In this document: piece after piece, positions 7,192 through 36,889 of the stretch | Layout of the letters: each line of letters begins with the position of its first letter | Position numbering within the stretch: position 1 is the stretch's first letter | Assembly (NCBI GenBank): GCA_025350045.1 | Contig: JANXYM010000077.1 | Span: 1-40,824 of the forward strand | Length of the DNA stretch: 40,824 bases | Direction of reading: 5' to 3' | Origin: Methanomicrobiales archaeon | GTDB taxonomy: Archaea > Halobacteriota > Methanomicrobia > Methanomicrobiales > Methanospirillaceae | Translations under genes and position numbers: made by a program | Notes under the pieces: generated by a model | Told to the model about the DNA's origin: nothing | What the model saw: the letters and a program-made list of their open reading frames with translations, nothing else | The model's database searches: none

Positions 7192-8613
7192 TCACACTAC
7201 CTGAACTCCGTAGACGCCGCTGCCAATCCACCACGTACCATCCACCGGCTTCATGTACACCAGTTTCGGGACCGATGCGGTGTGGTTTGCTGCTGTGTCC
7301 GGGAACATTGCGTGGGAGAACCCGGTTCCGCGGCGGATCGCATTGATGCCGACGACCGTGGTCTTTGCACCGTACGGGTCCGTATAGTTCATGTAATTCT
7401 TCCCAATCCCGTCTTTCCAGAACGGATCGGCAAGGATCGTTCCGTCAAACGTTTCCGCCCAGACAAAAAGATCATTGTTCACAAACGATCCTGACGGATT
7501 GTTGATCTCTGCAAGCGTCTTTTCCTTCCCATTAACCCTTGCGTAGGTTACCGCACTGTCGACAAGATCGTACATTTCCGTACGGGTATGGTTCCGCAGG
7601 GTGATGCCGGTACTATTGTCTGTCCGCAGTTGCTCATACCCGGGGATGATAATGCCGGAGAAGATCCAATAGGAACCGTCTACCGGTTCGGCATAATCGA
7701 TCTTGGGAGCATAGAATGTCTTCCCATTCTTCTTTACAGCGGCAACCGTGTACGAGAACCCGCCGCCATTCCGGGCGAGATCCCGCATCTCCCGGATAGT
7801 GGGGACACCGTCCGGGTCATGGTAGTTGATCAGGTTGATGCGGTTCTTTGCGGTATCCGGTGAGAGGGAATTTGCGATCACGGTGCCATTGTAATCCAGT
7901 GCAATGATAGTCAGTTCTCCTTCGACAAACGGACCGCCCGGATCCCCGAACGCTGCAACTGCCTTCTCCTTTCCGTTTGCCCGGGCATACACTGCAGCCT
8001 GTTTCACAAATACGGTAAGACCGGCAACAGTGTACTCCCGGGTGACCGGGCCGATAGCGGCTGACGGGTAAACGATCCCGGACCCTGCATAGGTACCTGC
8101 TCCAACGTAATAGGTGCCATCCACATCGGATACGACCGAGAGTTTCGGCTCAATGCGGTTGTTGTGGGCCGGGTTGGGGTAATCGTAACTGACAAACCCG
8201 ATGCCGTATTGCGCCGTCTCCTCCAGATTCTGAACAAGGGACACACCGTACCGGTCGGTCATGTTCCTGAGGTTGGTACCTACCAGTTCGTGATGGAACG
8301 GTTCGGCCAGTGCGGTGCCGTCATAGTCCTCGGCAAAAACATATAATTCACCCTGGACGAATTGTCCGTTTGGATCATTGAATGCGGCTATCGCCTTCTC
8401 CTTCCCGTTCTCGCGGGCGTATGCAGCTGCACGGTTCACCAGGATTGTCAGCTCTGCCGGCGTTGTCAGGGTGCCTGATACTTTCTGTGTGGGAGCAGCG
8501 GTTGCCGGAGGTACCTGACCGGAATCCTTCTGTCCCTGCGACTGGCTGCATCCTGCTGTGATGATACATGCGGTAATCACGAGCAGGATGGGAAGCAGAT
8601 AACGCATCTTCAT
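7192..8613 (-). CDS. Lipoprotein with three tandem single-Cache domains
   Basis: From the ATG at 8613 the protein is 473 residues. A signal peptide ends in the lipobox ITAGC (Cys22), so it should be lipid-anchored outside the membrane. Three repeats of an sCache_2-like domain follow at about 54-174, 197-322 and 346-470, each with YAR.NGKEKA, a DYDGT or FDGT turn, and a late VDG.YW or VDGTWW then GSG or GAG. Cache domains bind small ligands in sensor proteins, but here there is no transmembrane or signalling part. The open frame extends to 8754, but a TATA box at 8637-8645 about 24 nt upstream of 8613 sets the start. It is divergent from a one-Cache paralogue. Confidence 0.85.
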   Translation of the reverse strand: MKMRYLLPILLVITACIITAGCSQSQGQKDSGQVPPATAAPTQKVSGTLTTPAELTILVNRAAAYARENGKEKAIAAFNDPNGQFVQGELYVFAEDYDGTALAEPFHHELVGTNLRNMTDRYGVSLVQNLEETAQYGIGFVSYDYPNPAHNNRIEPKLSVVSDVDGTYYVGAGTYAGSGIVYPSAAIGPVTREYTVAGLTVFVKQAAVYARANGKEKAVAAFGDPGGPFVEGELTIIALDYNGTVIANSLSPDTAKNRINLINYHDPDGVPTIREMRDLARNGGGFSYTVAAVKKNGKTFYAPKIDYAEPVDGSYWIFSGIIIPGYEQLRTDNSTGITLRNHTRTEMYDLVDSAVTYARVNGKEKTLAEINNPSGSFVNNDLFVWAETFDGTILADPFWKDGIGKNYMNYTDPYGAKTTVVGINAIRRGTGFSHAMFPDTAANHTASVPKLVYMKPVDGTWWIGSGVYGVQVV

Positions 8614-8636
8614 ACTGGGGATTTCTACGGACAACC

Positions 8637-8645
8637 AATTAAATA
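8637..8645 (-). promoter_or_regulatory. TATA box for the triple-Cache lipoprotein
   Basis: On the minus strand this reads TATTTAATT, ending 24 nt before the ATG at 8613, so the transcript would be leaderless or nearly so. It excludes the longer frame beginning at 8754, which would start upstream of the promoter. Confidence 0.5.
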
Positions 8646-8752
8646 CTGGCTCCATTTTTAACCATGAGAAAGCGTGGTTACCTGACCCGGTATCTACTCT
8701 ATCTCCGCTGGATACTGCCGGTTTATCTGTTTTTGTATCCAACCTGTGTGAC

Positions 8753-9391
8753 ATGATGCTGAATCTGCGCTCCTACGCCCTGTTGGGCATGCTCATCCTC
8801 GCCTTCCTGATCTGCGCCGGCTGTACGCAGGGTCAGGCCCCGTCACTCGCGCAGGCAACACCTCTCCCGGCAACAGTGACTGTCCAGAAAACAGCATCAC
8901 CGATAGCGACTACCGCAACCCCGCAAATGGTAACAAAGGAAGAGATGGTCGCTTTTGTGAAAGAGGCAGTTGCCTATGCCAGGCTCAACGGCAAGGATAA
9001 AGCTCTTGCGGAGTTCTCTAACTCGAAGGGCTCGTTCTTCCGTGGCGTGCTCTATATTTATGCGTACGACTATGACGGCACCACCATTGCCCATCCGGTG
9101 AACCCGGAGAAGGTTGGCATAAACCGCCTCAATGAGAAGGATGCGGAAGGCAACCTGTTCATCCAGGACCTGCGGCAGGCTGCCATCAACAGAACTGGCT
9201 TTGTTACGTATTATTATATCAATCCAGCCCACGGCAATGCTGTGGAGCAGAAACTCGGCTACGCCATGAGCGTTGATGATACCTGGTGGCTCGGTTCCGG
9301 GATCTACCTTGCCCCGGCCGGTAAACCCGAAACGCCGGTAAATGAAACCCTGTCTCCAGCAGGTTTCGTGACTTCCTATCCTGGCAAATAA
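8753..9391 (+). CDS. Lipoprotein with one Cache domain
   Basis: The 212-residue product has a signal peptide with lipobox ICAGC (Cys24), a Thr/Pro/Ala-rich linker to about 60, and one Cache-like domain (about 62-185) with VKEAVAYARLNGKDKALAEF, YDYDGTTIAHP, GFVTYYYINPAHG and DDTWWLGSGIY. It is clearly a paralogue of the divergent triple-Cache lipoprotein. A ligand-binding role outside the cell is inferred; no signalling domain is attached. The start is ATGATG, so 8753 or 8756 are both possible. It ends 28 bp before the convergent YkgJ-type gene. Confidence 0.85.
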   Translation: MMLNLRSYALLGMLILAFLICAGCTQGQAPSLAQATPLPATVTVQKTASPIATTATPQMVTKEEMVAFVKEAVAYARLNGKDKALAEFSNSKGSFFRGVLYIYAYDYDGTTIAHPVNPEKVGINRLNEKDAEGNLFIQDLRQAAINRTGFVTYYYINPAHGNAVEQKLGYAMSVDDTWWLGSGIYLAPAGKPETPVNETLSPAGFVTSYPGK

Positions 9392-17134: not shown

Positions 17135-18379
17135 ATGGATTTCGATAAGATGCTTCCCCGCACTTCCGATTTATTGCTGATGGAAGCAGTGGACACAACA
17201 AATTTTGAATCAGTCCGGGTGCTTGTATCCAAAGGGGCAAACGTAAATTACCGCGGGACGCATGGTGAGACCCCCCTGCTCAAATCCCTCATGTGCGACG
17301 ATCCCCGGATCTGCCAGTTTCTGCTCGAGTCCGGTGCAGATGTCAATATTCCGACAGCCAACGGGTATAGTCCCATCTCCTTTGCATGCCTCCAGAATAA
17401 TTTTGAATATGTCCGGATGCTGCTTAAGCATCATGCAAAGATCAACCAGAAAACACAGGATGGCTGGACGCCGCTCCTCATCGCATCAACGAACTCTTCG
17501 GTGTTTTTTGAAAACCAGGAGCATGATTTCTACCACAGTCTTACGGAGATAATGTACAAATACGCCCATTATCACCCGGATTATAATCCGCTCCACATCG
17601 TGAATATGCTCCTGAATGCCGGAGCGAATCCCTCAGACTCCAATATGTTTGGGATGACCCCGCTGATGGCAGCATCGAGCATGGCGAATTACCGGATTGC
17701 AGGAATGATCCTGGAACATACTCCGGCAGTTGATCTGCGGGATATGGAGGGAAAGACTGCCCTGATGTACGCAGTGACTTCTACTATAGAAGAGTTGATT
17801 GAAAGTTTGATCCACCTGCGGCTTGTGGGAGTTGAGATCAAATTATCTGATTTTATGACTCCTGCAGCTCTTGCTCAGATCAAACCGCAGTTCGAGCCGG
17901 CAAAAGAGCTCTGCGTTAATCGTCTGCTTGAGGCTGGTGCAGATATCCATGCAAAGGATCAGAAGGGATTCTCAATTCTCACGCATGCAGCCAGAACCGG
18001 CAATGTAAATATTGTGAAAAATATAGTTTCACATGGTGCGGATCCAGATGTAAAATCCCCAAAAGGGATTACCCCGCTCTATGCTGCGGCGATCAATGGG
18101 CATAACGATGTCCTGGAGTTTTTGCTCTCAAAGGGTGTTGATATTGACGGGCGACTGAATGATGGTGAAACCCCGCTCATGGCAGCGGTCTGGAACGGCC
18201 AGGTAGAGACGGTCGATCTTCTTATCAGGAAAGGAGCGAACGTGCATGCAAAGAAAGTCACAACGTACAAGCCTTCCGGAGAATCCAGTCTTGTATGGGC
18301 AGTGCATAAGCATCGCAAGGAAAAGAACGAGAACTATGATATTATTTTCCAGTTGCTCGCCGATGCAGGTGCTGAATGA
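17135..18379 (+). CDS. Ankyrin-repeat protein
   Basis: The 414-residue protein has about nine to ten ankyrin repeats across its length, with clear units such as GANVNYRGTHGETPLLKSLM, GADVNIPTANGYSPISFAC, GADPDVKSPKGITPLYAAA and GVDIDGRLNDGETPLMAAV. A less regular stretch around 215-255 breaks the array. No signal peptide. Ankyrin arrays bind other proteins; the target is unknown. A TATA-like TTTTTTAATACC (17088-17097) lies about 38 nt before the ATG at 17135. Confidence 0.9.
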   Translation: MDFDKMLPRTSDLLLMEAVDTTNFESVRVLVSKGANVNYRGTHGETPLLKSLMCDDPRICQFLLESGADVNIPTANGYSPISFACLQNNFEYVRMLLKHHAKINQKTQDGWTPLLIASTNSSVFFENQEHDFYHSLTEIMYKYAHYHPDYNPLHIVNMLLNAGANPSDSNMFGMTPLMAASSMANYRIAGMILEHTPAVDLRDMEGKTALMYAVTSTIEELIESLIHLRLVGVEIKLSDFMTPAALAQIKPQFEPAKELCVNRLLEAGADIHAKDQKGFSILTHAARTGNVNIVKNIVSHGADPDVKSPKGITPLYAAAINGHNDVLEFLLSKGVDIDGRLNDGETPLMAAVWNGQVETVDLLIRKGANVHAKKVTTYKPSGESSLVWAVHKHRKEKNENYDIIFQLLADAGAE

Positions 18380-21078: not shown

Positions 21079-22386
21079 TCAGACCAGGTACATATCCTCC
21101 GCGTGTCTCATCAGTTCGTCCCTGAACTTTGGATGAGCGAGGGAGATGATCGCAAGTGCCCGTTCACGGGTTGATTTCCCTTTCAGGTTCACGATCCCAT
21201 GCTCGGTTGCAAGGAAATGGGTATCGGCTCGCGGTGTTGTGACAACCGATCCGGAAGCAAGCCTCGGCACGACCCGGGAGATGGTTCCGGCTTTTGCCGT
21301 GGAATAAAATGCAAGAAACGATTTTCCCCCGCGTGATGCAAATGCACCGCGGACAAAATCCAGCTGGCCTCCGGTTCCCGAGAATGTTGCCCCTTCAAGA
21401 TACTCCGCATTTGCCTGCCCAAGGAGATCTACTTCGAGCACCGAATTGATAGAGATCATAGTGTCATTCTGTGCGATGACGGATGGTAAACAGACATAGG
21501 AGGCGGCATAGCTCTCCATACTGGGGTTGTCGTTCATGAACTCGTACATCCGTTTTGTTCCTGCCGCAGTGGTATATACGTGCTTACGCGGGTGGAGGTT
21601 CTTTCTCCTGCCATTTGCCACTCCCGCCTCAATAAGATTGACCATCCCCTCGGTTAGCATCTCCGTGTGAATCCCGATATCCTTATGATCTTTTAAATAT
21701 CGTGTGACTGCATTGGGAAGGTTTCCGATACCCATCTGGATGGTTGCACCATCCGGTACCATTGCCGCAATTGCCGGACCGATGATCTCATCTTCAGGTT
21801 TTGCCTCGGCGATACAGAGCTCCATGAGCGGGACGTGGTTCTCAACCACTGCATCCACTTCGGAGATATGGATGAGGGAATCGCCAAACACCCGTGGCAT
21901 ATTCCGGTTCACCTCGACAAAGAGCCGTTTGCAGTGCCGGGCTGCTGTTGAAAAATAATCGTTTGCCGTGCCCAGGCTGAAGAATCCTGCCTCGTCCACA
22001 GGAGAGACAGTAGCCATTGCGATATCCGTATCCATGTATTCAGAAACAATCCGTGGAATCTGGTGCAGGTAGGAGGGAACATGATAATTCAGGCCAACTT
22101 TCACGGAATCACGATCCGCGGCTCCGACAAACCAGGAATAGTTCTCAATACAATCGCAGAGATCCGGGGAAAGGACCGTTTTTGTTGCGTGTTCACGGGG
22201 AAGGAACGTATAGACTTTGAGATCCCTGACCCCTCCATTCCTCACCCGATCTGCAAGGGCGGTAAGGAGTGCCGGGGGCTGTGCTATACTCATGCCATAC
22301 ACGATGGTATCTCCGTTTTTCACCCGTTCCATTGCTTTCTGTGGGCTGGTTGTTTTCTCCTCATACTGTTGAGCTGCTGTTTTCAT
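21079..22386 (-). CDS. Acetyl-CoA hydrolase/CoA-transferase family
   Basis: From the ATG at 22386 the product is 435 residues, a two-domain class I CoA-transferase of the acetyl-CoA hydrolase / 4-hydroxybutyrate or butyryl-CoA:acetate transferase type. The N-terminal half has the GD.I.YGMSIAQPPALLTAL opening; the C-terminal half has the IQMGIGNLPNAV loop, GIHTEMLTEG with the likely catalytic Glu, and the GTGGQLDFVRGA motif. It would swap CoA between acyl groups and acetate, or hydrolyse acetyl-CoA; the substrate cannot be told from sequence. The frame extends to 22446 but the extra 20 residues are hydrophobic and unlike the family. Confidence 0.85.
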   Translation of the reverse strand: MKTAAQQYEEKTTSPQKAMERVKNGDTIVYGMSIAQPPALLTALADRVRNGGVRDLKVYTFLPREHATKTVLSPDLCDCIENYSWFVGAADRDSVKVGLNYHVPSYLHQIPRIVSEYMDTDIAMATVSPVDEAGFFSLGTANDYFSTAARHCKRLFVEVNRNMPRVFGDSLIHISEVDAVVENHVPLMELCIAEAKPEDEIIGPAIAAMVPDGATIQMGIGNLPNAVTRYLKDHKDIGIHTEMLTEGMVNLIEAGVANGRRKNLHPRKHVYTTAAGTKRMYEFMNDNPSMESYAASYVCLPSVIAQNDTMISINSVLEVDLLGQANAEYLEGATFSGTGGQLDFVRGAFASRGGKSFLAFYSTAKAGTISRVVPRLASGSVVTTPRADTHFLATEHGIVNLKGKSTRERALAIISLAHPKFRDELMRHAEDMYLV

Positions 22387-23189
22387 GATATCGCATTTGA
22401 GGAATAGTACGAGAGCAATGATAAAATGGATGGCAAAAAAGCACAAACTATTACCCCCCCTGTTACTTCAGGTTCTAACGTTCCGGGTTACCAGGTCAAT
22501 GATGCGGTATCCGGGGAGCAATCGGGAAATCTGTCTGGTATTTCAATTTCCAAATCATTTCGTGACACATGGGAATTATCCATCATCTTTAAACCGTTTC
22601 TGATGATTCAGGTTCTAGTACCTATCTCAAAGGGTACAGGCTGAACCTCCTGCAATTTTGTGAATTTATATCATCTTCCATTGAACTTGGTATGCTGGTT
22701 GAGTCCTCATACCGGGATTCACTGCAATACAAGAAGAGGAGATCCAGTGCATCATTGGACATGAGCCCTTCTGGGCGCTAACTGCATACTATACCAAACC
22801 AAAAACGCTGCCCATCTGCTCTTCCCACTATCATACACAACATGAGAAGTGATGAACATGAAAAACAACCCCTGTCCGAAGAACGATCCACATTATGTCC
22901 CGCAGCCTGCACGGGCTTCATCCATTAACGATGAAAATACGTCTCCGAATCAGTTACCTGCTGGTGGCTGGTTGTGTGAGATCAGCTCACGTGAGAACTG
23001 GCGAACAACCACGATTGTCCACCGTCACCGGGACCAGGCAGCATCGGTCCACTCGCCCTGATGTTACATCACTGAGGCACATCGCACGTGAATCCGCTCA
23101 TCTACAGCACATCCTGCCGGTTGTTACCTGACCGTCAGTCTTCTTAAAAAAGTTTTTTTAACGGGTCCCTTCCTGCTATGGGTTCACGA
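22387..23189. other. 800-bp gene-poor stretch
   Basis: Several short frames exist (22426-22644, 72 codons; 22849-23061, 70 codons), none with a recognisable domain. The second starts GTGATGAACATGAAA and encodes a polar, Pro/Asn-rich peptide; a real small gene there is possible but unproven. A TATA-like ATTTATATC (22662-22670) is followed by three small hairpins: GGTATG/CATACC (22689-22713), CACTG/CAGTG (22720-22749) and GCCC-TTCT-GGGC (22765-22776). A small RNA is possible. Confidence 0.4.
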
Positions 23190-23911: not shown

Positions 23912-25900
23912 TTACCGGATCTTACTCCCCGGTTCCACTGGCCGGAACGGCACCAGCAGTGATGCAGCATCCCCGGCTGCAAGAACCATACCGTTGCTCT
24001 CCACGCCGAAGATTTTTGCCGGAGCGAGATTGGTGACAACCACGACATCCTTTCCTACCAGTTCCTCGGATTTATAGAACTGCTGCATGCCGGCAACTAT
24101 CTGGCGTGTTTCGGTCCCGATATCGACCTGCAACTTTAAGAGTTTGTTCGATTTCGGTACTGGCTCAGCTGAAAGCACTTTTCCGGTCCTGATATCCAGT
24201 TTCTGGAATTCCTCGAATGTAACCATTGGTATCTTCTCCGTCTTCTTGTTCGCTTCTGCCACTCGCTTCTGGAGCAGGTCATCGAGCTCCTTAACCTGTT
24301 CCTCTTCCATCTTCACAAAGAGCGGGGTAGGAGCCTTGATGCATGCCTCAGGGACCGGGTGCGTGGCATCGCTGATCGGATGATTTGCCACTTGATCGTA
24401 ATAACCCAGTTGTTTCCAGCACTCCTGTGCTGTCATCGGCATTACCGGTTCGAGGAGCAGTGCGAGGGCTTTTGTTATCTGGACACAGTTTTTGATCACG
24501 TGTGCTGCTGCTGCCCGATCGGTCTTGATCAGTTTCCACGGTGCGTTCGTCTGGATGTAGGTATTGCCGAACGCCGCAAGCGCCATAATAGAATCGACAG
24601 CACCTTTGAACTCGTACTCCTGCATGTACCCGTTAACGGTTACAAGGCACTTTTCGATCTCAGCAGTTATCGCCGGATCTACTACACCTCCGGGTATGCC
24701 CTCCCATTCTTTCTGGGCGAAATAAAGCGTGCGGTACACAAAGTTGCCAAAGATATTGACAACCTCGTTGTTGATCCGCTCCCCAAATACTTTCCACGAG
24801 AAGTTCAGTTCCTTGGTGTGGCTTGTGTATGCGAGCAGGTAATAGCGCAGGTAATCGGCAGGCAGTCCTTTGTCAAGGTAATCGTCATTTGTCCAGACGA
24901 CATATCCCCGTGATTTAGAGAATTTGTGGTCGTCCACCTTGACCATCCCGCTTGCCACAATCGCGTGCGGAACCCCGTAGCCTGCACCTTTCAGGAGGGC
25001 CGGCCAGAAGATACCGTGGTGGTAGATGATGTCGCCGCCTATGAAATGGGTAACCCTGTTCTCGCCGCACCAGAACCGTTTCCAGTCGTTGCCGGTCTTT
25101 TTGGCCCATTCTTCGGTGAAGGCGATGTAGCCGATCGGGGCATCGACCCATACATAGACCACGAGATCATCGCGGCTAGGGAACTTCACACCCCATTCGA
25201 GCGTGCGGGTGATACACCAGTCGTGAAGTTCGTCTTTTATCCAGCCTATTGCATAGTTCTTTGCATTGCTCGTTCCTTTAATCGTGTCAAGGTAGGGAAG
25301 CAGGAAATCCTTGAACTCCGAGAGTTTGAAGAAAAAATGTTCCTGATCCCTGAACTCGGCTTTTGTCCCGCAGACCTTGCAGAGCGGATCTTTTATTTCG
25401 CCGGGCTCAAGGTGCTTGCCACAACCCTGATCGCATTCGTCGCCCCGGGCTGGTTTACCGCAGTGGGGACAGGTGCCCTCAACATACCGGTCAGGGAGAA
25501 AGCGTTTGCATTTTGGGCAATAGGCCTGGTGTACGATCTGCTTGTAGATGTAACCGTTCTTCTCGAGTTCGGCTACAATGGTTTGTGTGCGGTGATGGTT
25601 TGCCGGGTTGTCGGTCATGCCGAAATGATCGAACATGACATTCATCCGCTTGAATGTCTGGTCGAAGTGAGCATGGTAGCGTTCGGACATCGCGCGTGGG
25701 GTGATTCCGGCTTCTTCAGCAGAAACCACAATCGGTGTCCCGTGATTGTCCGAACCGCAGACGAATACTACTTCCTCTCCCATCCGCCGCATATAGCGGA
25801 CGTACGCATCGGCAGGAACGTACGTTCGCAGGTGTCCGAGATGGCAGGGGCCGTTTGTGTACGGCAGCCCGCAGGTGACGAGCAGCGGTGGGGATGTCAT
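23912..25900 (-). CDS. metG: Methionine--tRNA ligase
   Basis: From the ATG at 25900 the enzyme is 662 residues. It charges tRNA-Met. It starts LLVTCGLPYTNGPCHLGHLR with the HIGH-type motif at 20-23, has a zinc knuckle region with CPKC, CPHC, CDQGC and CKVC pairs (about 130-180), and the KMSKS counterpart HKFSKSRGY near 335. An anticodon-binding helical domain follows, then a fused C-terminal tRNA-binding OB domain (FQKLDIRTGKVLSAEPVPKS to the end), as in many MetRS. The frame stays open to 26296, but that part is antisense to the divergent gene and unlike MetRS. Confidence 0.96.
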   Translation of the reverse strand: MTSPPLLVTCGLPYTNGPCHLGHLRTYVPADAYVRYMRRMGEEVVFVCGSDNHGTPIVVSAEEAGITPRAMSERYHAHFDQTFKRMNVMFDHFGMTDNPANHHRTQTIVAELEKNGYIYKQIVHQAYCPKCKRFLPDRYVEGTCPHCGKPARGDECDQGCGKHLEPGEIKDPLCKVCGTKAEFRDQEHFFFKLSEFKDFLLPYLDTIKGTSNAKNYAIGWIKDELHDWCITRTLEWGVKFPSRDDLVVYVWVDAPIGYIAFTEEWAKKTGNDWKRFWCGENRVTHFIGGDIIYHHGIFWPALLKGAGYGVPHAIVASGMVKVDDHKFSKSRGYVVWTNDDYLDKGLPADYLRYYLLAYTSHTKELNFSWKVFGERINNEVVNIFGNFVYRTLYFAQKEWEGIPGGVVDPAITAEIEKCLVTVNGYMQEYEFKGAVDSIMALAAFGNTYIQTNAPWKLIKTDRAAAAHVIKNCVQITKALALLLEPVMPMTAQECWKQLGYYDQVANHPISDATHPVPEACIKAPTPLFVKMEEEQVKELDDLLQKRVAEANKKTEKIPMVTFEEFQKLDIRTGKVLSAEPVPKSNKLLKLQVDIGTETRQIVAGMQQFYKSEELVGKDVVVVTNLAPAKIFGVESNGMVLAAGDAASLLVPFRPVEPGSKIR

Positions 25901-25934
25901 GACTACATTTTTTGATTGTGATGCGTAATAAGAT

Positions 25935-26732
25935 ATGACCATGGCCAAGCTGCACAAACTCACCACGCGGGCGTTCGGGGCGGAACCCGGTATGCCGGAT
26001 GTTGCCCCGCTTTCGGAATGGATTGCGGAGCATCGCGGCACGATGGCCGACCTTACGACATTCCAGTTGTCCCGATCGCTCGCCCCGCAACTGGCAGCGG
26101 GAATCGGCCACCCCTGCGCAGGTGGAAAGTTCTGTGCGGACCGTATACGATCATCACTGTATGGGGTAGCTGGAACGCGGGTTACTGAAGAGATAACCGT
26201 GCATACTGAAGCGATTATTGAGGATGCGGCAGGCATTGTAGTGCAGAAGCGCAACAGCTGGTGTGCGCTGCCGGCCCCGCATGTGCTCGGGCTCACCGAT
26301 GGTTACTATTGCGATGATGAAGAGTGGAGCGATGCGTTAACCGATGCTTACAGCACAATAATGCGGGCAATGCGGGATATCGGTATCGCGGGGCACGTGT
26401 TGATCGGTGATAAAACACCCGAGATGGAGATTGTCGCACTCGCAGCGAAGAATGTTTTTTTCTTTCAGCCGGATGCAGATCGAAAAGGATTTGGATGTTT
26501 GATGGAACACCAGCGTCAGATTGCTGTGTGCCCGAAACAATTGGAAACGGTTTTTGATCTCAGCAATGAGTATGATCTGCGGAAGATCATTATTGTTGAT
26601 GCAGATGAAGACGCGATCACGCTCGCACTTTCCCGTCTTGATCCGGATCAGGTGAGTGTCGGCGGGTACTGCCTGGATGAAAGCGGGGATTACTGGCAGA
26701 ACCTGGTTGATACTGCGGTATACACCCGATGA
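25935..26732 (+). CDS. Conserved-looking hypothetical protein
   Basis: The 265-residue soluble product is divergent from metG, with 34 bp between the starts, so the two may share a promoter region. It has a Cys pair (HPCAGGKFCADRIR), a long central helix (WSDALTDAYSTIMRAMRDIG) and a C-terminal alternating strand/helix part (DLRKIIIVDADEDAITLALS). I do not recognise the family. The start is ATGACCATG, so 25935 or 25941. Coding is supported by its length and by the divergent layout; the overlapping minus-strand frame is its shadow. Confidence 0.7.
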   Translation: MTMAKLHKLTTRAFGAEPGMPDVAPLSEWIAEHRGTMADLTTFQLSRSLAPQLAAGIGHPCAGGKFCADRIRSSLYGVAGTRVTEEITVHTEAIIEDAAGIVVQKRNSWCALPAPHVLGLTDGYYCDDEEWSDALTDAYSTIMRAMRDIGIAGHVLIGDKTPEMEIVALAAKNVFFFQPDADRKGFGCLMEHQRQIAVCPKQLETVFDLSNEYDLRKIIIVDADEDAITLALSRLDPDQVSVGGYCLDESGDYWQNLVDTAVYTR

Positions 26733-26760: not shown

Positions 26761-27264
26761 TTAGTTCTGACCAATCTGGTGAGATACTGAGGGAATGCTG
26801 ATCTGATCGTACCATATTTTACGATACCCGTCAGGGAAAATAATTGTAGTAGTCGAAGGTGAGAAATCCGGTGAGATGAGTGGTGCGAACCAGTACGCGT
26901 TGAGAATTTTTTCTGCCCGTTCGAATGACACGGATGGTGACTCCATTCTCGTTCTTCCATTCTCCAGGGTTACCGAGGCAAAGGATGGAACGATAACGGA
27001 AGATGAAGAACTTGTTGCTTTTGTCACCATCACCGGTTTTTCTGCATGTCCTTCAAATGCGGATTTGAGTTCGGCAGCCGGATCGGCAATCTTGAAAAAT
27101 ACTGCAGTCTGCTCGAACAGGGAAAGATCATACTGCATATCGATATCTGCATTCCCGTTCTGTGCAAGAGTGATGGTGAGTGACTTCATGGTAAATGCCT
27201 GTGCTGGCATTACTAACAATGCCAGTACGAACAGGCACCCGATGACAAGATAACTTTTTTTCAT
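26761..27264 (-). CDS. Exported hypothetical protein
   Basis: The 167-residue product has a typical signal peptide (MKKSYLVIGCLFVLALLVMP, cleavage after AQA) and an external domain starting FTMKSLTITLAQNGNADIDM, with a Ser-rich stretch in the middle and WFAPLISPDFSPSTTTIIFP near the end. No membrane anchor is seen after the signal. The family is not recognised. A TATA box on this strand (TTTTTTAA, 27289-27296) lies 25 nt before the ATG. Confidence 0.7.
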   Translation of the reverse strand: MKKSYLVIGCLFVLALLVMPAQAFTMKSLTITLAQNGNADIDMQYDLSLFEQTAVFFKIADPAAELKSAFEGHAEKPVMVTKATSSSSSVIVPSFASVTLENGRTRMESPSVSFERAEKILNAYWFAPLISPDFSPSTTTIIFPDGYRKIWYDQISIPSVSHQIGQN

Positions 27265-27538: not shown

Positions 27539-28781
27539 TTATTTTCTGCGGAGTGTAAGGAGCAGGGTTGCACCCACAAGGCTGGTAATAATCACCGGCA
27601 GCGGGAGTGGGGACTGGGTTGTCGGTACCGGTGTGGGTTGGGCCGGACTCAGTGTCACATAGATATCCACCATCTCACCCGCAGCAGGCTGGCGGGGTAC
27701 GGTACCGGTAGTGGTAGTATACCCCGGTTTTGAGACTGTGAAGGTGGAAAATGGTGTGCCGGTCGTTGCTACCGATATTTTCAGTTCTCCATTGCGTATG
27801 ACACCCATGGTGTTCGATCCGACCATGACCGTGGCACCTTCGACATTGGCATGGACGGCGATCCATCCGTGCTCGCTTCCCGGCGGGTTGACCGGTGCGG
27901 AAGTCTGGACTGTGGTTGTCAGGGTGATGATGGGAGAGTGGGTAACCCGGACCGGGACCGTCTGGCCCTTTGCAGGTGCGGCAGGCAGGGATCCTGATGC
28001 AGTCAAGTACCCTGCCTTTTCCACGCGGTACATTTTGAAGGGTGTTCCGGTACTATAGACCTGGACCGAGAGTACCCCGTCCGCGATCATCCCCTCGTAT
28101 TCAGAGTCGAAATAGACAGTTGCCCCATTCACATTACAGGAACCGTGTACCATCCCGCATCGCCACCAATGGGTGTCAACATCGTTGTGGGGATGGTCGT
28201 GGGTGGGGTTGTTGCTGTGGGTACCGGGTTGAGGGTTGCATACAGATCAATCGTCTGATCTGATGCGGGCATACGGGAAATCGATCCCGCGTAGGTGACA
28301 TACCCGCTCCTGCTCACCGTGTATGAAGTAAAGGGTGTGCCAGTGGTGGAAATTTCGAGAGTGAAGATACCACTGGTTATGGTACCTTTGGTTACCCCAT
28401 CGAATGCTACAGATGCTCCATCAATATTACTGTGAACTGTGAACTGTGAACCATCCTTTGCCGCTACCAGTGGGTTTTGGACTGAGTGTGACCAGGATCT
28501 CGATATTTGCCGGTCCCCCGGGAACGAAGCTGAGACTGCCGGACTTGTAATAATATCCATCCCTTGTTACCGTGTATGTACTGTAGAGGTTACCGTCAGG
28601 AACGTCAAGAAAACCTCCCGATATAGTACCAGCCGGAGTCCCGTCAAGGGAGACCGTGGCACCATCGACATTACAAGTGAATGTCACATAGCCCTCCCGG
28701 AGGGGGTGTGGCAAGTACCGGGGTACTGCAGAGGCAGAGTCCCATAAGGAGTACACAGAGAAAGAACCGCTTTCTATTCAT
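27539..28781 (-). pseudogene. PEGA-repeat surface protein gene broken by three frameshifts
   Basis: The intact product would be about 410 residues: a signal peptide from the ATG at 28781 (MNRKRFFLCVLLMGLCL), four PEGA repeats (motif like G..V.CNVDGATVSLDG, TG.PF..YTV...GY), Pro/Thr linkers, and a C-terminal transmembrane helix plus LRRK tail. The frame changes three times. At a C5 run (28702-28706 on this strand) one base too many separates the signal peptide from repeat 1. At 28430-28450 a 7-bp unit (CTGTGAA on plus) is present three times where two would keep the frame into repeat 2. Near 28137-28145 one base is missing before repeat 3. It ends with a good terminator. Confidence 0.8.
28430..28450. 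repeat. Three tandem 7-bp repeats inside the PEGA gene
   Basis: CTGTGAA is repeated three times without interruption. Two copies would read W-F-T-V-H-S-N-I-D-G across repeat 2 of the PEGA protein; three copies add 7 bp and force a stop (HSSQ then TAA). Because 7 is not a multiple of 3, each gain or loss switches the frame. Confidence 0.9.
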
Positions 28782-28855: not shown

Positions 28856-29827
28856 TCAGTTCGATTCTGCCGCTTTCACGAACTCATCGAAATGCCGGCT
28901 CTTCTTGAACAGCCACCAGGTGAACCGCTCGATCACTGAAAAGTTGAACGAACCCCCCGCTGCATTCGGGTGTCCGCCCCCGCCAAATTCCCGTGCGATA
29001 ATATGGCTTATCGGCGGTACAGAGCGCACCGAAAACTTGCCGTCTTTTCCTATGATCACTTCAATATCGGTCTTCCGCTCATCCCGGATGAAATGGGCGG
29101 TCTCACTCGGGTAACCGTAGAGCGGTGCAAATGCGATCCTGTATTTTTTCCCCAGGAATGTTGCCTGTTTCAGGCTGCGCTGCATCATTGCATCCATCTC
29201 TGCCTTGATCTCCGCGTACTCCTGCTCGATCAAAGGATCTGAAAAGATCCCGTCTACAAGACAGTCCCGGACATGCTCGCGGTTCTTCTTTCGCTGGAGC
29301 ACCTGACCTAGTACTGCCGAACGCGGGTCAGCATGTTTCCAGAGATCATAATCGCAGACTACGCGGGCAACCTCAACAGCAATTGGATTTTCAGGGGACA
29401 GATCGCGAGCAACGATTCCCGTGCCGCATACTGATGTATCGATGTGGAGTAGTGCAACAATCCGCTCAATCTTTTTAATTTCGTCGTCCCGCCAGCGGTG
29501 GTGATCCCGCCACTCTATGTTCCAGCCGTTTGCCTTTGCCTTGCCTGCTATCAATTCAGTTTCCCGGTGATACCCGAGATCCGAGATTGAGAGCAGGTCA
29601 CCTTTTCCCTCGCAGGAAGCTACCATTGCAAAGAGAGCGGCAAACTTTCCAACAGAGCTCCAGATAGTGAACACGCCGTCAGTGCCAAACTTCATCCGGT
29701 GAATGGCATCCGCTCCCACGGCATCGAGATCGTTGTGTGTGAGGTGGACAACATGTGCGGTGCGGCTCTTTATTGCATTCAAAAGACCGCTGTTTTCTCC
29801 ACTGGCACGTGCATTCGGGAGTGACAT
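28856..29827 (-). CDS. DHH-family phosphoesterase
   Basis: The 323-residue protein has the DHH domain with HNDLDAVGAD (about 30-39), ISDLGYH, and WRDHHRW, giving the metal-binding Asp and His residues, and a DHHA1 domain ending FGGGGHPNAAGGSF, the substrate-binding loop. Relatives cleave oligoribonucleotides, pAp or cyclic dinucleotides (NrnA, GdpP, RecJ-like archaeal enzymes). The substrate here is not predictable. A TATA box lies at 29851-29860, 24 nt before the start, implying a leaderless transcript. It is divergent from tRNA-Phe. Confidence 0.9.
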   Translation of the reverse strand: MSLPNARASGENSGLLNAIKSRTAHVVHLTHNDLDAVGADAIHRMKFGTDGVFTIWSSVGKFAALFAMVASCEGKGDLLSISDLGYHRETELIAGKAKANGWNIEWRDHHRWRDDEIKKIERIVALLHIDTSVCGTGIVARDLSPENPIAVEVARVVCDYDLWKHADPRSAVLGQVLQRKKNREHVRDCLVDGIFSDPLIEQEYAEIKAEMDAMMQRSLKQATFLGKKYRIAFAPLYGYPSETAHFIRDERKTDIEVIIGKDGKFSVRSVPPISHIIAREFGGGGHPNAAGGSFNFSVIERFTWWLFKKSRHFDEFVKAAESN

Positions 29828-33422: not shown

Positions 33423-34724
33423 ATGCCCGATCCCATTCGCTCTTTTTACCAGCATAATCTCCCCGATCTATCTCCTCTTACCGATCTGACCCGACGCCAC
33501 TTCCGTATTCTTCTCCCCGGTGGAACCTTTTTAAAAGTGCATGACCGAATACGCGATGGCGCGACCCTGCAACAATGGCTGGTCCGGTATCGTCCTTCGG
33601 ATGTATATTACTCAACCAGCTGCTGGCTCTCTCCGGAAAATATCGGAAGACGCGAAAAAACACCATTATCCGCCAATATTTTTCTCTCATCTGACATAGT
33701 TTTTGATATCGATCGTTCACCGTTCTCTTTAAAAAATCTTGAACTGGCACGCAGGGATACATTGGAACTGCTCGGATTCTGTGCTGATAGAAATTTTCCC
33801 GTAAAATACATCGCATTTTCCGGTAGCAAGGGTTTCCATGTAGTCTGCAGTGATCCTCATAGGTATGATAATCCGGCCCCTCTTGCCAGAGAGGACCAGG
33901 CAAAGGCAGTACGCAGGGAGATTATTGCCGAAGTACAGGAAGACAAAATCAATATTGACCCGAAAATCACGGCAGATACCCGGAGGATTATCCGGGTCCC
34001 GGGAACGATCAACTCGAAGGCCGGGTATGTCTGCACCGTGCTCACTCCTTTTCAGCTGGAAAACTCCGTGGACCAAATTCTTAAATATATTCCACGGGTA
34101 GATCCTCTTACCCCTTTGATCCCACAAACGGGAGCGATCCCGGGAGCGGGAGATGAAAGACCTCTTCGAGGCCTCCGTATAATATCCTGGCTTTGTCACC
34201 GATTGGGGGTAAGGTCAAAGCCACAACATTCTTTTTCTTATGCAACGTTTCTGGTCAATGCAGTGCCGGGTATCGACAGGCAGATCCCGTTTTTTGTTTA
34301 TTCCCCGCGACGAAACCTGCAAACAATTATTGCAGAACTTATCACTTTGCAGGAAACCTATGGTCTGTCAGATATCATCGTATTCCGCTCAGAGACCGAG
34401 ATTACTGCCATATCTCTCCGCACGTTCCCGCTCCGCAGGCTCGAGAAGATCATTGCCGCATCAAGCTCCATAAATTATGGATTGCTGTTGAAGTACAAGC
34501 AGCTATTTTTCCGCGTAGGGGAGAAAAAAAATGAGCTCCAGCAGGTTTGTGCCTCCTCGCCAGTCTTTGTCAGATCCATCCCCGCTCCCCGGGAAAACAA
34601 TACCCACTTTGTCAGTCGTCCCCACTATGCCTTTTTCTCACGGTATGGTCATTCTCTCTTCGAATATCCGAGGATGCACGGAGCGGGTGAGGTGTACCTG
34701 ACATATGCAGCGATTGAAGAATAG
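33423..34724 (+). CDS. Archaeo-eukaryotic primase (PriS-like) protein
   Basis: The 433-residue protein carries the AEP core in order: YYSTSCWLSP (61-71), the catalytic DIVFDIDRSPF with Asp95 and Asp97, the nucleotide-binding SGSKGFHV with His139 (133-140), and DPKITADTRRIIRVPGTINS (179-198), equivalent to the third Asp and the R-L-P-G-S motif of the primase small subunit. No zinc-binding cysteine knob is visible, which PriS usually has. About 230 residues follow, with no domain I recognise. It could be the replicative primase small subunit of this organism or a separate AEP paralogue; no large subunit (PriL) gene is beside it. It follows a small helical gene by 9 bp. Confidence 0.8.
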   Translation: MPDPIRSFYQHNLPDLSPLTDLTRRHFRILLPGGTFLKVHDRIRDGATLQQWLVRYRPSDVYYSTSCWLSPENIGRREKTPLSANIFLSSDIVFDIDRSPFSLKNLELARRDTLELLGFCADRNFPVKYIAFSGSKGFHVVCSDPHRYDNPAPLAREDQAKAVRREIIAEVQEDKINIDPKITADTRRIIRVPGTINSKAGYVCTVLTPFQLENSVDQILKYIPRVDPLTPLIPQTGAIPGAGDERPLRGLRIISWLCHRLGVRSKPQHSFSYATFLVNAVPGIDRQIPFFVYSPRRNLQTIIAELITLQETYGLSDIIVFRSETEITAISLRTFPLRRLEKIIAASSSINYGLLLKYKQLFFRVGEKKNELQQVCASSPVFVRSIPAPRENNTHFVSRPHYAFFSRYGHSLFEYPRMHGAGEVYLTYAAIEE

Positions 34725-34737
34725 AAAAGCAGTCTGA

Positions 34738-35106
34738 TTATTTCCCTAAAAATCTCTCTAAACCCGCTTTGAGTTCAATGATAGAGACCGGTTTCTGGAG
34801 TATACCCAGCTTTGGGTCATTGAGTTCTACTATTTTTTCTTCCGCAGATGGTGCTGCGGTGAAAAGGAGTACCGGAATGTCCCGCATACCGTATTCTCCA
34901 CGGAGTTTCTCCAAAAATTCCCAGCCGTTCATGGGAGTCATCATGATGTCAAGCAGGATAAGTGAAGGCGGATCCTCTTTAACCCGCCTGAGCGCGTCGA
35001 GCACATCCGGTACGAGAACTGGTTCATAGCCAATCCTCCGGAGCAGGATCTCCATCATATCAAGTATAGGCAGATCGTCTTCAACGAGCATTATCTTATG
35101 GGGCAT
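34738..35106 (-). CDS. Response regulator, receiver domain only
   Basis: From the ATG at 35106 the product is 122 residues, one CheY-like receiver with acidic pair Glu-Asp-Asp near 9-11 (MLVEDDLP), phosphoacceptor Asp in LILLDIMMTPMNGWEFL, the Thr of LLFTAAPS, and the Lys of LQKPVS. There is no output domain. It starts 11 bp inside the end of the sensor kinase gene, so the pair is translationally coupled and is very likely a cognate kinase-receiver couple. The start preferred over 35151 because the receiver fold begins right there. Confidence 0.9.
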   Translation of the reverse strand: MPHKIMLVEDDLPILDMMEILLRRIGYEPVLVPDVLDALRRVKEDPPSLILLDIMMTPMNGWEFLEKLRGEYGMRDIPVLLFTAAPSAEEKIVELNDPKLGILQKPVSIIELKAGLERFLGK

Positions 35107-36889
35107 TTTGCATCTCCTTGGGCAGATGAATCGTAAAGGTACTTCCCGCATTTACTGTACTTTCAACGGTTATGTCTCCACTGTGCATCAGAATAACCTT
35201 TTTTGCAATCGAGAGTGACAAGCCGATCCTGTCATATCGGCGGGACAATTTTGCTGCATCAGCGAGCTGGAACGGTTCAAAGATGGACGAGAATACACTC
35301 TTTTCAATGCCAATACCATTATCCTGAATGGAAAGGTGGTGTTGTGTGTCATCGGCTTCTGAACAGTAAAATATTTTGATATTGCGCGGGGGTTTGGAAT
35401 AATTCACCGCATTTGAGAGCAGAGATTCAATCACGCTATATATACGGTCCTTATCGGCAGTGAGTTGAACGGAATCGGGGATATCCACGGTCACATCTGC
35501 TTTTGAGTAATAACCACTTGTATCCAGCACACTTTTTACCAGTGATTCCAGCGGGAAGGTTGAATAACTCAACTTGAGTTTGCCGCTTTCAAGCACAGAA
35601 AGATCAAGCATCTGGTTGATGATCTGGCGTTCACGATCAACACTGGTAAGGCAGCGCTCGAGAATTTTTTTCGTCTCTTCAACGATACCAAATCCCTCCG
35701 GATCAGAGATCAGGAGGTTGAGGTACCCCAGAATCGGCTGGAGTGGAGTCCGTAATTCGTGGGCTACCGTGATGATGATCCCGCGTCTTCGTTCATTATC
35801 CTCAAGGATCTTATCAGACAGTCGCTGCTTTTCTGAGATGTCGATGATATTGATCATCATTGCCGGTTTTTCAAGATGAGTGATTGAATTTGCAGAGAGA
35901 GCCCCTGACCTGATTCCACCGGTTTTAGTCACAAACCGGATCTCCATCTCCTCATGATTTTTATTATTGTTGTCAGGTTCGTTTTTTATAAAATTGCAAA
36001 AAACTTCACGGTCATGGGGATAAACAAAATTCTCAAGGGTTTTTCCGGTAACCTCATGTTTGCTATACCCGGAAAAGAGAGTAAAGGATGGGTTGGAAAA
36101 CCTGATATATCCCCCTTGTATCAGAAGAATGCCATTCGGCGAGTTCTCTGTTAACTGGCGATATTTCATCATATTGTCATTATTTAATTTCTCTGCAATT
36201 TTCCTGCCATTGATATTTACCGCAGTACAACTGATGGTGGTCTCATCAATGGTATTCCACGAGAGATTAACCCAACAACCCTCTCCCGATTTGGTCCCCA
36301 GCCGGACCTCAAAATTTTCTGTGGCCTCGGTTTTGGAAATTCTCTCGAGAAACCTTTCTTTTTCCATGGATGTGAGGAATAATGATGAAAATGTCATGCC
36401 ATTGATCTCTTCATTTGTGTAGTCAAGCATAGAGGGAAAGCGGGTATTGGTCTGCCGTATTGCAAAGTCAGTACGATTGAAAAGTGCAATACCAAGCTGC
36501 GAGTGCTCAAATACGGACCGGTACCGAGCTTCTCCCGTTCGTATCTTTTCAATGAAATATGCGATCAGGCTTGCGATAAGAACAAAGAGGATTGCTTCTG
36601 AGGTGACCGCGATCAGTGCAGTATAACTGGGATAGCAGTAATAATAGCCGACTGTCTGGTATGCCACTCCGCAGATGAGAGCAACCAGCAATCCGCGTTT
36701 TGGGTAGAAGTAAGCGGCATAGAGGATTGGGATGAAAAATAGCTGGTAACTGAGAAAATTAATGGATCGCGAAAATGAAACTGCTGTGATGAGTGTACAG
36801 CATATGGTAAGGGAAGAGATCACACAGAGCCGGACAATATCGGTCTTAGCCATCATATTCTGTAGAACACGAATCATCTTCTCTGCCAT
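35096..36889 (-). CDS. Multi-pass membrane histidine kinase with two PAS domains
   Basis: The start chosen is ATG at 36889 (597 residues); the frame extends to a TTG at 36904. Four transmembrane helices occupy about 18-112, with short loops, so the sensing part is likely in the membrane. Two PAS domains follow (about 120-240 and 243-358), then HisKA with His377 in TVAHELRTPLQPILGYL, and an ATPase domain with SLLSNAVNYSKPP, DNGIGIE and RIGLSLSIAKK (the G2 loop is degenerate). It transfers phosphate to the coupled receiver protein, whose gene overlaps its end. Confidence 0.9.
   Translation of the reverse strand: MAEKMIRVLQNMMAKTDIVRLCVISSLTICCTLITAVSFSRSINFLSYQLFFIPILYAAYFYPKRGLLVALICGVAYQTVGYYYCYPSYTALIAVTSEAILFVLIASLIAYFIEKIRTGEARYRSVFEHSQLGIALFNRTDFAIRQTNTRFPSMLDYTNEEINGMTFSSLFLTSMEKERFLERISKTEATENFEVRLGTKSGEGCWVNLSWNTIDETTISCTAVNINGRKIAEKLNNDNMMKYRQLTENSPNGILLIQGGYIRFSNPSFTLFSGYSKHEVTGKTLENFVYPHDREVFCNFIKNEPDNNNKNHEEMEIRFVTKTGGIRSGALSANSITHLEKPAMMINIIDISEKQRLSDKILEDNERRRGIIITVAHELRTPLQPILGYLNLLISDPEGFGIVEETKKILERCLTSVDRERQIINQMLDLSVLESGKLKLSYSTFPLESLVKSVLDTSGYYSKADVTVDIPDSVQLTADKDRIYSVIESLLSNAVNYSKPPRNIKIFYCSEADDTQHHLSIQDNGIGIEKSVFSSIFEPFQLADAAKLSRRYDRIGLSLSIAKKVILMHSGDITVESTVNAGSTFTIHLPKEMQNAP

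Follow-up and report, generated by a model that had tools for sequence, protein, structure and literature searches.

A probable recent, lineage-specific pseudogene of a four-unit PEGA surface protein in a Methanomicrobiales archaeon

The PEGA domain has been described from cell-surface proteins of archaea (PMC2447325). The locus analysed here shares with the PEGA proteins (PF08308) of methanogenic archaea a signal peptide, units some 70 residues long in tandem, a cell-surface topology and the typical motifs NVxGAxVxxxG and GxYTVxxxGY; it differs from them in that its reading frame is broken and in that its C-terminal anchor, searched against the NCBIfam models for archaeosortase-type signals, matched no sorting-signal model. 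Two other classes of described system are relevant. Heptameric repeats have been described in bacteria (PMC4692102), and hypermutability of the repeat number is what defines loci switched by repeats (PMC11868660). With phase-variable surface genes based on simple sequence repeats the locus has in common a surface product and a frame-changing tandem array with a unit of 7, but the array has only three copies, is not conserved and is accompanied by two further independent breaks. With lineage-specific prokaryotic pseudogenes formed by short indels it shares several frame-changing indels, intact orthologues at the same locus and outright loss of the gene in sister genomes; no notable difference from this class was found, and decay is at an early stage, nonsense codons not having arisen so far.

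The window, that is, the whole analysed stretch of 40 824 nucleotides, comes from a draft genome of 2.53 Mb in 121 contigs. Among named relatives, the nearest one found was a Methanoregula sp. known from a metagenome-assembled genome (L071); the locus is shared by relatives that carry the same genus label. The features of the locus described in this paragraph lie on the minus strand, with coordinates of the window. The PEGA gene (27539–28781) lies directly downstream of a gene for a DHH-family protein with a weak DHHA1 match (28856–29827), which served as synteny anchor and as the gene for tree building. It is followed by an intact gene for a small, secreted-looking protein of 167 residues (26761–27264), for which no Pfam or NCBIfam family scored above cut-off, and by metG (23912–26296), the second synteny anchor. 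Within the PEGA gene, the signal peptide MNRKRFFLCVLLMGLCLCSTPVLA (28709–28781, judged by eye) is in the first frame, unit 1 (28451–28684, from translation and orthologue comparison) in the second, unit 2 with a linker (28144–28443) in the third, and units 3 and 4 with a hydrophobic C-terminal anchor ending in RRK (27542–28138) in the frame of unit 1. A preliminary description had placed the signal peptide and the four units in four successive frames; the frames do change from segment to segment, but only three distinct frames are used, in the order 1, 2, 0, 2 along the gene. Against PF08308, unit 4 scored 27.5 bits, above the Pfam cut-off of 20.8, and unit 2 scored 16.8 bits, under it; the intact orthologues passed the cut-off with 35–36 bits, and units 1 and 3 are taken as PEGA-type through their homology to these orthologues. 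PEGA ancestry was also read from tandem units, export signal and membrane anchor, using in-frame translation, alignment with six orthologues and, for signal and anchor, inspection by eye. A DNA comparison intended to find a second intact copy in the same genome gave nothing beyond short stretches that match other PEGA genes.

The DHH gene was found in 39 of 40 relatives, and 20 congeneric stretches were fetched around it for comparison of the locus. The PEGA gene directly follows the DHH gene in six of them (G006, G008, G018, G021, G014 and G023), and in all six it is open from end to end, with about 423–428 codons from stop to stop, or 501 in G021, where the frame extends further upstream. 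In eleven congeners the fetched stretch includes both synteny anchors, DHH gene and metG, and no PEGA gene separates them; the remaining three (G003, G009 and G013) are uninformative on its presence, owing to contig ends or rearrangement beside the DHH gene. A tree built from the DHH gene places the window in one clade with G006, G008, G001, G015, G004 and G012 (support 100/99), in which the PEGA gene is intact in two members, broken in the window and absent from four; the tree gives no firm branch order inside this clade and is too weak for losses to be counted. In the four clade members that lack the gene, the DHH–metG distance is about 440 bp and the gene for the 167-residue protein is missing too; blastn and tblastn searches of the sister genomes without the gene revealed no relic of it. 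That more distant congeners have the gene suggests an old presence within the genus and repeated losses.

Three frameshifts had been proposed for the window copy, and all three were found on translation and on alignment to the six orthologues. The first break (28692–28706) has the net effect of one added base, as described earlier, but its assignment to an extra C in a C5 run is not secure, because translation in the frame preceding the break gives PPPGG, similar to the orthologues' PGG, and this lies past that run. The event may instead have occurred in the G-runs of the neighbouring palindrome CCCTCCGGGAGGG. C5 runs are common in any case, the window holding 44 C or G runs of five or more. 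The second break (28429–28451) is a 7-bp tandem array with one copy beyond the number that keeps the frame. Tandem Repeats Finder reported it with period 7, 3.3 copies and 100% match, as the top-scoring array of the window, and this together with the alignment bore out the earlier statement that it amounts to exactly one extra 7-bp unit. It was the sole exact array with a unit of 5–10 and at least three copies in the window and about 214 kb of sequence from relatives, and 30 Markov simulations gave none. The third break (28138–28145) is, as had been proposed, a single missing base, one fewer than in the six orthologues, and lies outside any repeat. None of the six carries the 7-bp array, break 1 or break 3 in the alignment, so that the indels are confined to the window copy, and an additional load of nonsense codons in the orthologues, which would have pointed to a plain pseudogene, was sought and was absent. 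Clean orthologues are what a lineage-specific pseudogene predicts.

Selection was assessed over 377 codons, each compared in its own frame. No nonsense codon was found among these in the window copy, which also retains 105 of the 117 residues that are invariant in the six orthologues. Were all 134 window-specific base changes neutral, about 3.3 stop codons should have arisen, and the probability of seeing none is 0.04. Changes unique to the window lineage comprised 51 amino-acid and 29 silent changes, against 66 and 78 for the two closest orthologues, G006 and G008, together (Fisher p = 0.012; p = 0.005 against G006 alone and p = 0.14 against G008 alone), with silent sites near saturation. This excess of amino-acid over silent changes is modest, and may reflect some relaxation of selection on the window lineage. 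From the missing nonsense codons and the retained invariant residues it follows that inactivation was recent or that the sequence is in error; unless the latter holds, most of the divergence must have accrued under constraint.

Under an error of assembly or consensus, the organism would have an intact gene, and the three indels would have arisen artificially when the genome was assembled from a metagenome, helped by repeats inside the gene. The fragmented draft, the near-complete set of invariant residues in a copy free of nonsense codons, and the position of break 2, possibly also of break 1, in repetitive or palindromic DNA are in keeping with this reading. Poor sequence quality, which had been offered as one option, is nevertheless unlikely, because about 30 other ORFs of the window, which cover 27.2 kb, keep a single frame when aligned to relatives and the breaks are confined to a single gene of 1.24 kb; the chance of three random breaks all hitting the PEGA gene was about 8 × 10−5. 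An extra, exact 7-bp unit is also atypical of short-read errors, the gene is absent from sister genomes as well, the window copy may show the relaxation noted above, and another PEGA gene of this genome is likewise broken, stop codon included. We regard such an error as improbable, though as more probable than the other alternatives. Much less probable is that slippage in the 7-bp array, with or without the C5 run, reversibly switches the gene and that the assembly caught it in the OFF state. Bacterial switching does involve surface proteins and repeat units that, like the 7-bp one, are not divisible by 3, and the tracts had been likened to those of phase-variable genes. The array, however, has only about three copies (3.3) in mid-gene. 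A selected switch predicts a conserved tract, whereas no orthologue has the array, and its 15-base two-copy string was found nowhere else in the source genome or in 24 other genomes. The part of the likeness that concerned the C5 run is weakened by the doubtful placement of break 1. A change in array length alone cannot restore the frame, because two further breaks lie in the gene; reversion would be needed at breaks 1 and 3 too, the latter outside any repeat, so that the suggestion of a phase-variable gene caught off would require three independent breaks to be undone. A version in which an archaeal PEGA gene is switched through the 7-bp unit, the other two breaks being artefacts or recent hits, appears just as improbable. 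The additional tandem copy in the 7-bp array is genuine, but it represents a lesion, not a switch. Least credible of all is a split gene still in use, its fragments translated separately from internal starts, notably the 204-codon ORF (27539–28153) that spans units 3 and 4 together with the anchor. An ATG near the start of that ORF and the retention of invariant residues across the whole gene would fit; the fragment, though, has no signal peptide while its units belong outside the cell, and none of the six orthologues is split in such a manner.

The reading that we favour, with a probability of about 0.86, is that the window gene is a recently inactivated, lineage-specific pseudogene, carrying inactivating lesions that are missing from the orthologues at the same locus. 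Of the options raised in the preliminary description, a decaying gene is thus the one that gained support, from intact same-locus orthologues in six congeners and disappearance of the gene in others. On this reading, the interval from the DHH gene to metG in the ancestor of the Methanoregula-like group would have held a gene whose product, with four PEGA domains, was exported and anchored in the membrane. Selection on it would have lapsed in the window lineage, with at least three frame-changing indels following: a gain of one base close to where the signal-peptide region ends, duplication of a 7-bp unit through slippage at a pre-existing two-copy repeat, and loss of one base at break 3. Slippage at the repeat is the natural inference for the extra 7-bp copy. 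Translation would now stop soon after the signal peptide, and an anchored protein is not expected. The comparisons directly show the breaks, the intact orthologues at the locus and the missing gene in sister genomes; the order of events, slippage as a cause and the absence of a product are what we infer from them. The locus would then be an ordinary young pseudogene of an already known surface-protein family, and should be annotated as such instead of as a phase-variable antigen or as two or three small proteins. It has little import beyond annotation; it does offer a clean snapshot of a clade losing an archaeal surface-protein gene: some species keep it intact, others have deleted it, and the window copy has a broken frame.

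Several minor observations were made. Unit 1 (28451–28684) resembles its counterpart in G014 (L076) more than those in G006 and G008, to which the remainder of the gene is nearest, and the N-terminal unit may therefore have been exchanged. Three ORFs of the window (7192–8754, 17135–18379 and 21079–22446) are whole, with counterparts that are split or partial in G006 or G015. The 167-residue protein gene stands beside the DHH gene in many congeners. The second PEGA gene of the source genome, near a contig end (G000:C21, about 34380–35530; L101:880–2030), contains frame shifts and a TAG codon, and a search by DNA gave no clear orthologue of it. PEGA proteins at this locus end in a TTxSPxxLPV-like motif, a hydrophobic stretch and RRK (window 27542–27640), possibly an undescribed sorting signal or a mere anchor. 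In another genome of the same order (G024:C1:1097836–1119342), a single open frame of 9331 amino acids was found to contain several dozen PEGA domains.
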